Below are positions 37,366 through 41,505 of a stretch of 64,000 nt of DNA, piece by piece. Source of the DNA: Aeromicrobium sp. 9AM (GTDB lineage Bacteria > Actinomycetota > Actinomycetes > Propionibacteriales > Nocardioidaceae); the NCBI RefSeq assembly GCF_902506105.1, contig NZ_LR733303.1, positions 496,001 to 560,000 on the forward strand, read 5' to 3'. Under the pieces are notes generated by a model. The model was not told where the DNA came from. It made no database searches and saw only the letters and a list, made by a program, of their open reading frames with translations. The position numbers and the translations under genes were made by a program. Position 1 is the first letter of the stretch. The number at the start of each line of letters is the position of its first letter.

Positions 37366-38937
37366 TCAGCCCAGTGGCCAGAGCCCGGCCGCGAACGAGG
37401 CGGAGTCGTTGCCGGGCGCAGGGTCGCCGGGCGCGGAGACGGAGATCGTGCCCCCGGACTGGATCAGGTCGCGCGAGCTGGCGACGAATGTCGTGCCGCG
37501 GCCCGCCGCGAGCCGGGTCGAGCAGGTCAGCGTCCGGAGCGACTGGTTCGGCGCGGCGTTCCCGCAGCTCCACCCGGGGCTGATGACACCGCCGACGTGC
37601 ACGGCGTGCTGGAACTCCAAGGTCACGGTCACGGTCTCGGGACCCGGACGCCCGGTGTTGGTCGCGCCGATGTCGACCGAGATGTGTCGCTCGAGGAGGG
37701 GCAGCAGCTGGCTCGTGACCCGGACCGAGGCGATGCCGTAGTCGGTCGGCGCGATCGGTTCGACGGCTGGCGCAGTCGGTTTCGGCGGAGGCTCGTTGGA
37801 TGGTTTCGGGTCTGCCGGCTTGTCGGTCCTCACCGCGGCGGGCGCAGCAGATGTCGGCCGCGGGGTGGGGGCAGGGGCCGGGGTCGTGACCACCGGCTCC
37901 GGCTCTGGCGAGGACTTCCGCGGGGCCGTCGTCTCGGACGGCTTCGGGGTGCTCGTGCGAGGCGCGGCCGCCGGCGCGCGGTCGTCGGCGGTGGTGCCGA
38001 GCTCATTGGCCACCACGACGGCACCGACCGTGGCGACTGCGACCACGGCCGCCGCCACGACGCCCTGCGTGCCGGCCCCGGTGACGGCACTGCCGGCGGC
38101 CTTCGCCGGAGCCATGGCGGCTTCGACGACCGCGCTGATACCGGTCGCGGCCGCACCAGCGCTCACATAGCCGGCGGCCGCCGAGCCCAGCAGTGCCGGG
38201 CCGAGGATCCCGGAGAGATTGGAGTTGATCTCGGCCAGCTCGAGGTAGAGCCCGGTGCACCGGCTGCACTCGTCCAGGTGCGACTCGACACGAGCGGAGT
38301 CGCGGGCGGAGAGACCCTTGCGGACGTACGAGCCGAGCAGGCTCGTGGTGGTGCGGCAGCTCGCGTGCAGGGTCGGCGCCAGGTGGTTCTGCAGGTACGC
38401 CTGACGCAGTCCTTCACGTGCGCGATAGGCCAGGGCGGAGACGCTGTTGGCACTCATCCCGAGCAGCGGCGCGATCTCGGCGGGCTTCTGGCCCTCGACG
38501 TCGAGGTGCCACAGCACGAGCTGCCACCGTTGGGGCAGCGACCCGAACGCCGCTGCTGCTGCCGCCTGCTCGAAGCGCATCTCGGCGGGGTCGACGAAGG
38601 CGACCGTGCGGTCGAGCTCGGACTCGTCGGCCGTCGGCCTGACCCGCTTCCTGCGGCGAGTGCCGTCGATGTGGATCCGGCGGATCGACGTCAGCAGGTA
38701 CGCACGGAAGAACTCGTCGGGTCCCTTGCCGGCCTGCAGGAGGGTGAGCACCCTGGTGAACGACTCGGCGACGAGATCGTCGGCGTCGGGCCCGGGGACG
38801 AGGTGCGCGGACAACCGCCTCGCAGCCTCGCGATGCCGGTCGAAGAGCTCACCGTACGCGTCGGTGTCGCCGCTGCGTACGGCCGCGATGAGCTGGGCGT
38901 CGCTGGCCTCGAAGCGTGTGGTGCTGATGTCTGACAC
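37366..38937 (-). CDS. Sigma-70 (ECF) factor fused to zinc-finger anti-sigma and exported domain
   Basis: 523 residues from GTG 38937, with GGAAGG six bases upstream. Order: sigma region 2 (AYGELFDRHREAARRLSAHL), region 4 with helix-turn-helix (QKPAEIAPLLGMSANSVSAL), a zf-HC2 anti-sigma motif HLDECSRCTG (about residue 225), hydrophobic segments (GVVAAAVVAVATVGAVVVAN near 305), a Pro/Lys/Thr linker, and a C-terminal beta-rich exported domain (VTVTLEFQHAVHVGG) with two Cys. Normally sigma and anti-sigma are separate. Here one chain carries both and crosses the membrane. It is divergent from the gene at 39064. Confidence 0.88.
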   Translation of the reverse strand: MSDISTTRFEASDAQLIAAVRSGDTDAYGELFDRHREAARRLSAHLVPGPDADDLVAESFTRVLTLLQAGKGPDEFFRAYLLTSIRRIHIDGTRRRKRVRPTADESELDRTVAFVDPAEMRFEQAAAAAAFGSLPQRWQLVLWHLDVEGQKPAEIAPLLGMSANSVSALAYRAREGLRQAYLQNHLAPTLHASCRTTTSLLGSYVRKGLSARDSARVESHLDECSRCTGLYLELAEINSNLSGILGPALLGSAAAGYVSAGAAATGISAVVEAAMAPAKAAGSAVTGAGTQGVVAAAVVAVATVGAVVVANELGTTADDRAPAAAPRTSTPKPSETTAPRKSSPEPEPVVTTPAPAPTPRPTSAAPAAVRTDKPADPKPSNEPPPKPTAPAVEPIAPTDYGIASVRVTSQLLPLLERHISVDIGATNTGRPGPETVTVTLEFQHAVHVGGVISPGWSCGNAAPNQSLRTLTCSTRLAAGRGTTFVASSRDLIQSGGTISVSAPGDPAPGNDSASFAAGLWPLG

Positions 38938-39063
38938 GGTGTCCCTTCCGACCAGCACAACGACCCACCCGCGAGGCGGTCACGAATCTCTCGCGTAACC
39001 GCGTCATGTGCGCACGTCCGGTGCGTCTCACATGTGTCCGAACGAGGAAGGGAGGGGTTCTTC

Positions 39064-39717
39064 ATGCTCAGCTCGGGACTGGATGACGTGCTCCTCGCCG
39101 AAGCCGTACGAGAAGGCCGTCCGGACATCGCCGATGTTGCACTCGAGGTGGGAGCGAGTGCAGCGCGGCTCGGCATCCCGCTCCATGAGGTCGTTGACCA
39201 CGTGGAGCGGGCCTTTGCCGGCCGTGAGCCGTCGTACGCCGTCACGCGGGCGGCGGTGCTGGCGTGGGCCGACGAGGCGCTGGTCCTGCACGCGGACACC
39301 TCGTGCGAGGACCCGCTGACCACCCTGGCCACCACGCCGTACGTCAGGTCGCGGCTCGGGGAGGTCTATCGCGGAGCCGAGCGCGACGGGCACCTCGTCG
39401 CCGACCGGGCCGCCCTCGTCGTGGTCGAGCTGCCTCGCGAACGCTCAGGCAACGAGCTCGAGCAGTCGCTCCGTGCCCTCGACGTCGCCGAAGCCATGCG
39501 GACGGTGTTCGCGGGTGACGAGACCGTGGCACAGACCTCGCCGCGCCGGTTCGTCGCACTGGTCGGCCGCGAACGTGCCGATGTGTTGACGATGAACCTG
39601 CTGCGCATCCTCCTCGAGCGGGTCTTCCGGGGCCCGATCCAGTCCAGGCTGTGGGTCGAGGAGCTGCCCCCGTCGGTCGACGGGATCGCCCGCGTGCTGG
39701 CCGGTCTCGCCGAGTAG
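39064..39717 (+). CDS. Hypothetical protein, possible degenerate GGDEF-like domain
   Basis: 217 residues from ATG 39064, with GGGAGGGG upstream. Two parts: an N-terminal helical region (DDVLLAEAVREGRPDIADVA, GIPLHEVVDHVERAFAG) and a C-terminal alpha/beta domain beginning around LVADRAALVVVELPRERSGN, whose strand order loosely recalls GGDEF proteins, though the active loop is absent. It is divergent from the sigma-anti-sigma fusion across 126 bp, so a role in the same signalling system is plausible. No firm family. Confidence 0.65.
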   Translation: MLSSGLDDVLLAEAVREGRPDIADVALEVGASAARLGIPLHEVVDHVERAFAGREPSYAVTRAAVLAWADEALVLHADTSCEDPLTTLATTPYVRSRLGEVYRGAERDGHLVADRAALVVVELPRERSGNELEQSLRALDVAEAMRTVFAGDETVAQTSPRRFVALVGRERADVLTMNLLRILLERVFRGPIQSRLWVEELPPSVDGIARVLAGLAE

Positions 39718-40522: not shown

Positions 40523-41236
40523 ATGCTGACATACGCAGATCACGGGCTTGAGAGGTCGATCACGCCCCTCGGCAAGCCAGTTGTGCCCGGAGTAGGCTGG
40601 GAGGCGATGACCGTCACCGGCGAGACCCCTGAGAGCGCCGACCCGCGCGAGACCGAGACCTCGGAGCAGCAGCAGGCGCGCTTCGAGGTCGACGCGCTGC
40701 CGTTCCTCGACCAGCTCTACTCCGCTGCGCTGCGAATGACCCGCAGCCCGCACGATGCCGAGGACCTGGTCCAGGAGACGTACGCCAAGGCGTTCAGCGC
40801 TTTTCACCAGTTCAAGCCCGGCACCAACCTCAAGGCTTGGCTCTACCGCATCCTGACCAACACCTACATCAACTCCTACCGCAAGAAGCAGCGCCAGCCG
40901 CAGCAGGTCACGGACGAGATCGAGGACTGGCAGATCGCCCGGGCGGAGTCGCACGGGTCCAGCGGCCTCAAGTCGGCCGAGATGGAGGCGCTCGAGCACC
41001 TGCCCGACAGCGACGTCAAGGACGCGCTGCAGGCACTGCCCGACGACTTCCGCTACGCGGTCTACCTCGCCGACGTCGAAGGTTTCCCCTACAAGGAGAT
41101 CGCCGAGATCATGGACACGCCGATCGGCACCGTGATGTCGCGGCTGCACCGAGGCCGTCGCATGCTGCGCGAGATGCTGGCCGACTACGCCCGCGATCGC
41201 GGCATGGCCGTCACGGGAGCAGGTGACAAGTCATGA
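40523..41236 (+). CDS. sigR: Thiol-stress ECF sigma factor SigR
   Basis: 237 residues from ATG 40523, where AGGAGG is four bases upstream; the conserved body begins at ATG 40607 (209 residues). Region 2: [40 protein letters not shown]; region 4: [40 protein letters not shown]. SigR directs the response to disulfide stress (thioredoxin, mycothiol genes). Two usable starts downstream of the autoregulated promoter parallel the long, short-lived SigR' form of Streptomyces. It overlaps rsrA by ATGA. Confidence 0.93.
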
Positions 41237-41505
41237 CCGAGCCGTGTGAAGGTCCCGACTGCGAGAAGGCACTCGAGAACCTCTATCTCTTCATCGACCA
41301 AGAGATCGACACCGCGAGCTGCGCCGAGATCCAGTCGCACATCGATGGCTGCTCGGACTGCCTGAGCGAGTACGACCTCGAGCGGGTCGTCAAGTCGCTG
41401 GTGTCGCGGTCCTGCTCCGAGGTGGCCCCCGAGCCGCTGCGCGAGAAGGTGCTGTTCTCGATCCGCAAGGTGCACCTCGAGATCACCGAGCGCAAGACGA
41501 TCTAG
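41233..41505 (+). CDS. rsrA: Zinc anti-sigma factor RsrA
   Basis: 90 residues overlapping sigR by four bases. ZAS motif HIDGCSDC (H-x3-C-x2-C) plus Cys in CEGPDCEKA and RSCSEV. In the reduced state it binds zinc and SigR; oxidation forms a disulfide and releases SigR. The pair is the standard actinobacterial redox switch. A strong terminator follows at 41520-41552. Confidence 0.95.

Follow-up and report, generated by a model that had tools for sequence, protein, structure and literature searches.

In the 64,000-nucleotide stretch of Aeromicrobium sp. 9AM DNA analyzed here (the window), an ECF sigma factor, a zinc-finger anti-sigma (ZAS) domain, a membrane segment and a predicted outer beta-sandwich domain are encoded in one reading frame. 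From the analysis as a whole, the product is probably a self-inhibited, membrane-tethered sigma factor of ECF52-like working that would be released by proteolysis, regulate its own gene and drive the neighboring one. The preliminary description had likewise read the gene as a sigma factor fused to its anti-sigma and perhaps tethered to the membrane. Its reading of the domains stands and fits the anatomy of the protein; its implied novelty does not, as the architecture is already given in the accessible parts of two publications (PMC5826349, PMC8999054).

Domain organization and reality of the fusion

The fused gene and its parts are located in the window as follows.

37366..38937, reverse strand: the whole fused gene (ECF sigma, zinc-finger anti-sigma, membrane and ectodomain parts), 523 aa from a GTG
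38644..38847, reverse strand: sigma region 2, aa 31-98 (Pfam PF04542)
38413..38553, reverse strand: sigma region 4, aa 129-175 (Pfam PF08281)
38257..38358, reverse strand: zf-HC2 anti-sigma motif, aa 194-227, with ligands C194, H220, C224 and C227
38008..38064, reverse strand: predicted membrane segment, aa 292-310 (Kyte-Doolittle scan)
37759..37992, reverse strand: proline-rich linker, aa 316-393 (from the sequence, limits set by eye)
37366..37758, reverse strand: predicted C-terminal Ig/CARDB-like beta-sandwich, aa 394-523, with conserved Cys458 and Cys472

The 523 codons run from the GTG without interruption. Pfam matches Sigma70_r2 over residues 31-98 (E=1.6e-6), Sigma70_ECF over 14-175 (E=4.7e-8), zf-HC2 over 194-227 (E=3e-8) and Sigma70_r4_2 over 129-175 (E=1.3e-5), the last slightly below its cut-off at 25.2 against 25.7 bits. 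NCBIfam adds a sigma70-ECF match (E=9e-16), with TIGR02937 over its cut-off, and an 'anti-sigma factor' match over 200-328 (E=3.4e-7) that lies far under its cut-off. The protein thus carries regions 2 and 4 of an ECF sigma factor and, as judged from its residues, the C...HxxxCxxC zinc-finger motif of class I (ZAS) anti-sigma factors, which bears out the earlier claim of ECF regions 2 and 4 and zf-HC2 in a single frame. The element then singled out as the anti-sigma motif, HLDECSRC, does belong to the zinc site but covers only the last three (H220, C224, C227) of its four ligands.

The locus set used for comparison is the best 80 of at least 512 confirmed candidates, drawn from Aeromicrobium, Nocardioides, Kribbella, Mumia and relatives, and counts over such related species are not independent events. 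Rows for two alignments were selected manually with regard to completeness of the frame, moderate length and spread: the first has 59 rows (55 of the 80, joined by the window protein and by three Streptomyces-type relatives) and the second 36 (35 of the 80 and the window protein). Among the best 80 of at least 512, all 80 encode the zinc finger in frame with the sigma domain, with no stop or frameshift parting them on a sequence check; C-x24-28-HxxxCxxC is present in 79, the remaining locus (L053) matching zf-HC2; and a hydrophobic segment lies beyond the zinc finger in 78, the other two ending at contig ends. Sigma70_r2, zf-HC2 and Sigma70_r4_2 (r4_2 at E<=0.01) were matched in 59/59 scanned members.

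Fused homologues are abundant on sequence search, the closest among the matches listed being those of A. ginsengisoli (71%) and Aeromicrobium sp. Root344 (69%). Matches were obtained in 16 of 20 genomes of relatives and, with ten candidates scored per genome, in at least 7 of 149 genomes spread over the phylum, the own genome being included in both counts. This genome encodes two further fused paralogues, L002 (57%) and L003 (41%), one relative with sigma and zinc finger but no membrane part, and one sigma-only relative. The third of these is immediately beside L002, whose fused sigma (57% identical) lies directly 3' of it (L002:1492-3938). A record titled Streptomyces sp. SID13031 holds a Kribbella-type fused sigma (L068:3956-6247) with the same length and C-terminal end as L017, which comes from a genome of the same order as that of the window; the title may be wrong.

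Compared with the A. ginsengisoli gene (L026), differences at codon positions 1/2/3 number 22/11/68 in the sigma part, 3/1/19 in the ZAS, 15/10/34 in the membrane part, 27/16/40 in the linker and 27/26/53 in the ectodomain; the ectodomain of the more distant L028 differs at 50/38/54 positions, a weak third-position bias. Such a pattern indicates that the frame of the fused gene is kept over its full length. A sequencing or assembly error that joined two genes might be suspected from the fact that other anti-sigma genes are separate, for example SigR and RsrA at 40601-41505. Given the frame shared by every one of the best 80 of at least 512, the fused genes of the same genome and the third-position-biased changes in all segments against L026, this artefact was ruled out and its probability is vanishingly small.

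Zinc finger, membrane segment and ectodomain

The sigma part and the ZAS are joined by a few residues. In the 59-row alignment H220, C224 and C227 are invariant and C194 is at or above 90%, and the ligand spacing C-26-H-4-C-3-C is identical in the fused protein and in RsrA (41233-41505). A full-length model has a pTM of 0.35 and so does not fix the placement of the ZAS against the sigma domain. In the stretch between zinc finger and membrane, P247, L250, G251 and Y257 are invariant or at least 90% conserved in the 59 sequences and invariant in 36/36, and conservation of this kind at residues 247-257 is unusual for a simple membrane or linker region.

As the preliminary description had it, a membrane part and a proline linker follow the zinc finger, which the Kyte-Doolittle scan and the sequence confirm. 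The predicted membrane segment comprises 19 residues (292-310) with a mean Kyte-Doolittle value of 2.57; a second and weaker segment at 258-276 has a value of 1.41, and a weaker hydrophobic stretch at about 241-259 was scored in many relatives. Turning to the C-terminal part, the exported beta domain claimed earlier is supported by prediction: when modeled alone, the ectodomain forms a seven-stranded beta-sandwich (pLDDT 88.8, pTM 0.83), a predicted fold that agrees with the Ig-like beta-sandwich of CARDB/DUF11-like domains. The closest folds, approximately tied, are Ig-like domains of integrins, complement, CARDB and a fibrillar adhesin, and the fold points to no ligand. By profile, the CARDB/DUF11-like Pfam domains are unmatched in the ectodomain of the window protein, nothing in Pfam matches beyond residue 237 at E<=1 (NPCBM included), and a profile of the ectodomain searched against PDB sequences reached a best E of 0.69. 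Both Cys458 and Cys472 are invariant in 36/36 rows of the smaller alignment, while in the 59-row alignment Cys458 is at or above 90% and Cys472 below.

The stretch at about 241-259 could be a second membrane helix, in which case the C-terminus would be inside the cell. A protein with two helices (about 241-259 and 292-310) and an intracellular C-terminal domain would account for the weaker hydrophobic segment in many relatives. It is nevertheless highly improbable, as the two ectodomain cysteines are invariant in the 36 rows, domains of extracellular type occupy the same place in relatives, and the full-length model makes residues 225-250 and 252-263 helices that continue from the zinc finger. 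A single crossing with the ectodomain outside is the topology adopted below.

Among the 59 scanned members, the outer domains recognized at E<=0.01 are Big_9 and cadherin-like (4), NPCBM (3, namely L106-L108), DUF11 (2) and, in the outer part of one member each, DUF7507, ricin lectin, CshA repeat and fn3; the majority, the window protein among them, have an outer part without a named domain. On these matches, the outer domain is the part that varies widely across the family, NPCBM, cadherin-like, Big_9, DUF11/DUF7507 and ricin lectin being domains of extracellular type. This variety points to an outside signal and argues against a redox or zinc switch, in which the sigma domain would come free in cis through oxidation or zinc loss at C194/H220/C224/C227, in the manner of RsrA, and the ectodomain would only be an anchor. 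The RsrA-like ligand spacing speaks for such a switch, but redox activity is not general among zinc anti-sigma proteins, and we consider it unlikely.

Putative promoter pair and divergent gene

Three features lie upstream of the fused gene.

38958..38984, reverse strand: putative ECF-type promoter of the fused gene, CGTGAC (38979-38984), 16 bp, CGTTG (38958-38962)
39002..39030, forward strand: putative ECF-type promoter of the divergent gene, CGTCAT (39002-39007), 16 bp, CGTCTCA (39024-39030)
39064..39717, forward strand: conserved divergent gene, read as degenerate GGDEF-like, with a longer frame from GTG 39034

The start of the divergent gene given in the preliminary description, at 39064, is favored by the position of the promoter motif: ATG 39064 is more likely than GTG 39034 because the site would put the transcription start downstream of the GTG. 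Pfam has no match for the divergent protein of the window. A GGDEF match occurs in one of 19 of its relatives (6e-5), and their alignment has a conserved P-L-T start and lacks the GGDEF signature; from these sequences the protein is read as degenerate GGDEF-like.

On one side the fused gene is flanked by DoxX, aroA and rsgA, and on the other by the divergent gene followed by SRAP, SigR and RsrA, where SRAP is our presumed name for the gene between the divergent gene and SigR. The SigR/RsrA pair (40601-41505, forward strand), an unfused sigma and zinc anti-sigma, lies beyond the divergent and SRAP-type genes. Neither adjoining gene (DoxX or the divergent gene) has an anti-sigma family match. 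Among the best 80 of at least 512 loci, the divergent gene was located in 75; in 74 of them, L095 being the exception, it lies on the opposite strand. Other neighbors were found as follows: AroA 58, SRAP 69, SigR 62, RsrA 58, RsgA 51 and DoxX 47. These neighbor counts are lower bounds, since many loci stop at contig ends, and they record presence and not gene order.

All 13 regions 5' of the fused gene in an alignment of Aeromicrobium-type loci (L036 and L038 left out) have CGTGAC-N16/17-CGTT in common, and CGTSAY-N15-18-CGTT is present in 11 of 12 loci titled Aeromicrobium. A wider set of 80 fused-gene upstream regions holds 79 of the best 80 of at least 512 loci (L069 was dropped as too short) and the window's own. 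Exact CGTGAC-N15-18-CGTT occurs in 17 of these 80 against a dinucleotide-shuffle mean of 0.3. The form CGTSAY-N16/17-CGTY, broadened after inspection of the sequences, occurs in 40 of the 80 (shuffle mean 0.7) and is absent from the other 40, and it occurs in 61 of 76 divergent-gene upstream regions (shuffle mean 1.0). In the same loci, none of 348 regions upstream of RsgA, AroA, DoxX, SRAP, SigR and RsrA contains it. For all genes other than the fused one, distances are rough owing to starts taken from tblastn. The exact arrangement at the divergent promoter, CGTCAT-N16/17-CGTCTCA, is found once in the entire genome.

The motif is unevenly spread within the family. It precedes five of nine same-genus fused genes in L008-L016 (absent in L012, L014, L015 and L016), is missing upstream of the own paralogues L002 and L003, and in its CGTT form is found 5' of the fused gene in no Kribbella locus. 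Neither a CGTSAY nor a GTAAC-type site lies upstream of the Streptomyces-type L106-L108.

SigR was considered as the factor that might recognize both promoters and rejected, its site (GGAAT-N18-GTT) being unlike the motif. Since autoregulation is common among ECF genes, the simplest reading of the two sequences is that the fused sigma would recognize both divergent sites.

A possible wider regulon

When 15 genomes of the genus, the own one among them, were searched in full for CGTGAC-N-TCGTTG, 63 sites were returned, of which 7 precede sigma genes of the fused family (L120, L133, L138, L151, L152, L155, L164). After 23 of the 63 sites comes a correctly oriented frame of at least 250 codons, compared with 12 for the wrong orientation, and the sigma genes are 7 of those 23. 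Without them the figures are 16 against 12, and at 200 codons or more they are 24 against 21, so most of the non-sigma sites are probably chance matches. A broad regulon was accordingly rejected, the 63 sites mostly resembling chance. The reversed pattern gave 4 sites in total as a control, which does not keep dinucleotide content and hence is no proof of enrichment.

Frames that start like signal peptides follow 7 sites against one in the wrong orientation, after two of nine (L165 and L171) had been excluded by eye, on inspection, as antisense. Three of the seven, in three species, resemble secreted S15-type hydrolases: the own L184 (by Pfam), L172 (64% identical) and L181 (by eye). The secreted S15-type alpha/beta hydrolase gene at L124:1562-3028 (G000:C7:2580822) has CGTGAC-N17-CGTTG 33 bp before its start, and a like site lies 36 and 50 bp before the starts of L172 and L181, from two other species. 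An S15 protein was found in 3 of 20 relatives (own included); G011 has the motif too, and the third, G018, is a partial match. Small acyl-carrier-like proteins, recognized by eye, are encoded just 3' of the motif in two species (L136:1533-1820 and L161:822-1109).

Taken together, these observations allow a more speculative proposal, which we advance tentatively. In the Nocardioidaceae, a surface-sensing tethered sigma and its divergent GGDEF-like partner may form a conserved module joined by back-to-back ECF promoters, in which release of the sigma would turn on its own gene, that of the partner and a few exported hydrolases. Lineages would differ in the sensing ectodomain they carry and have in common the sigma-ZAS core and the paired promoters.

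Proposed mechanism

At rest, the ZAS, fused to the end of region 4, would act in cis, clamping the sigma domain on the cytoplasmic side of the membrane, while one membrane helix and the proline-rich spacer would hold the Ig/CARDB-like ectodomain outside, where it may sense a surface ligand or the state of the envelope. A signal would expose the stalk to a site-1 protease, after which a site-2 (M50) protease and cytoplasmic proteases would free the sigma domain. The free sigma could then bring RNA polymerase to CGTSAY-N16-CGTY promoters: its own, which would make a positive feedback, the one before the divergent degenerate-GGDEF gene and perhaps those of a few exported-hydrolase genes. We infer the cis-inhibition, the single membrane crossing, the ligand, the site-1/site-2 release and promoter recognition by the fused sigma from the features above. 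The genome does encode an M50 protease, which is uninformative alone since 14/14 control genomes have one.

Alternatively, the sigma domain might never be cut: a signal would open the ZAS clamp and RNA polymerase would be recruited at the membrane, in parallel with ToxR/CadC-type regulators, which bind DNA from the membrane. The separation of sigma and ZAS by only a few residues would suit such a tethered activator, and P247, L250, G251 and Y257 could serve as a conformational relay. Against it, the fused protein IutY undergoes processing by proteases (PMC5411451), and a truncated SCO4117 that lacks the CBM, the membrane part and the zinc finger turned on its own gene (PMC5826349), so that activation without cleavage seems rather unlikely. 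A tethered sigma in need of either proteolysis or opening, as first suggested, fits both the anatomy of the window protein and what is described of SCO4117/ECF52 and IutY, and release by proteolysis remains the preferred reading.

Receptors that fuse sigma and anti-sigma belong to those ECF sigma factors that are less well understood. The present family could serve as a test case, with a promoter probably read by its own sigma, a conserved candidate partner gene and a natural variety of sensing domains, and in it signal, cleavage and output could be assayed separately. The exchange of outer domains also suggests a route to one-protein sensors.

Comparison with known systems

Among separate sigma factors, BldN offers a likeness in its promoter; it differs in not being fused to its anti-sigma, and a BldN-RsbN complex is present among PDB entries. 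The BldN site, CGTAACN16CGTTGA (PMC2375139), is close to the CGTGAC-N16-CGTTG of the fused gene, a similarity that is no proof of common recognition.

The nearest described relative in architecture is SCO4117 (ECF52) of Streptomyces coelicolor, in which an ECF sigma is followed by a zinc finger, a membrane region, a proline-rich stretch and an extracytoplasmic domain, and for which protease-dependent release has been proposed (PMC5826349). The window protein is alike in the order of zinc finger, membrane region and proline-rich extension. It differs at its end, which is an Ig/CARDB-like domain by prediction and not NPCBM (smart00776), and in its setting between DoxX/aroA/rsgA and the divergent gene followed by SRAP/SigR/RsrA, and the published promoter motif of SCO4117 differs from that of the fused gene. 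The Streptomyces-type L106-L108, which end in NPCBM, share 40-43% identity with the window protein across sigma-ZAS, and in L117, the one Streptomyces-type neighborhood of three that was inspected, a TetR gene adjoins, as atrA adjoins SCO4117. A tree of a 25-row set without SigR places the window protein with ECF52 (82/84, not starred), but with bootstrap unsettled and long branches it is too weak to assign an ECF group. Because it has no NPCBM match, we do not file the window protein as ECF52, though we consider it of ECF52-like working.

ECF48, ECF52 and ECF53 are described as fusions to a zinc finger and membrane helices for which proteolytic activation is expected (PMC8999054), and carbohydrate-binding or glycosidase domains are predicted in part of the ECF52/53 proteins (PMC10766802). 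With a C-terminal zinc finger and one or two membrane helices, ECF48 and ECF53 resemble the window protein (PMC8999054), which may already be a member of either. IutY (ECF243) of Pseudomonas putida, processed by Prc and RseP (PMC5411451), is the only fused case with experimentally characterized proteolytic activation (PMC8999054). It shares with the proposed mechanism a sigma and membrane anti-sigma in one polypeptide and activation by proteolysis, and differs in its periplasmic anti-sigma domain, siderophore system and Gram-negative host; the accessible text of PMC5411451 does not mention a zinc finger.

Literature searches for Aeromicrobium with ECF sigma factor and, under other wording, for a one-polypeptide sigma/anti-sigma found no paper. 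As far as the accessible parts of the cited sources go, the architecture is already described in actinobacteria, and what the present analysis adds is the wide variation of the outer domains, the syntenic divergent gene and the promoter-like motif shared by the two divergent genes.
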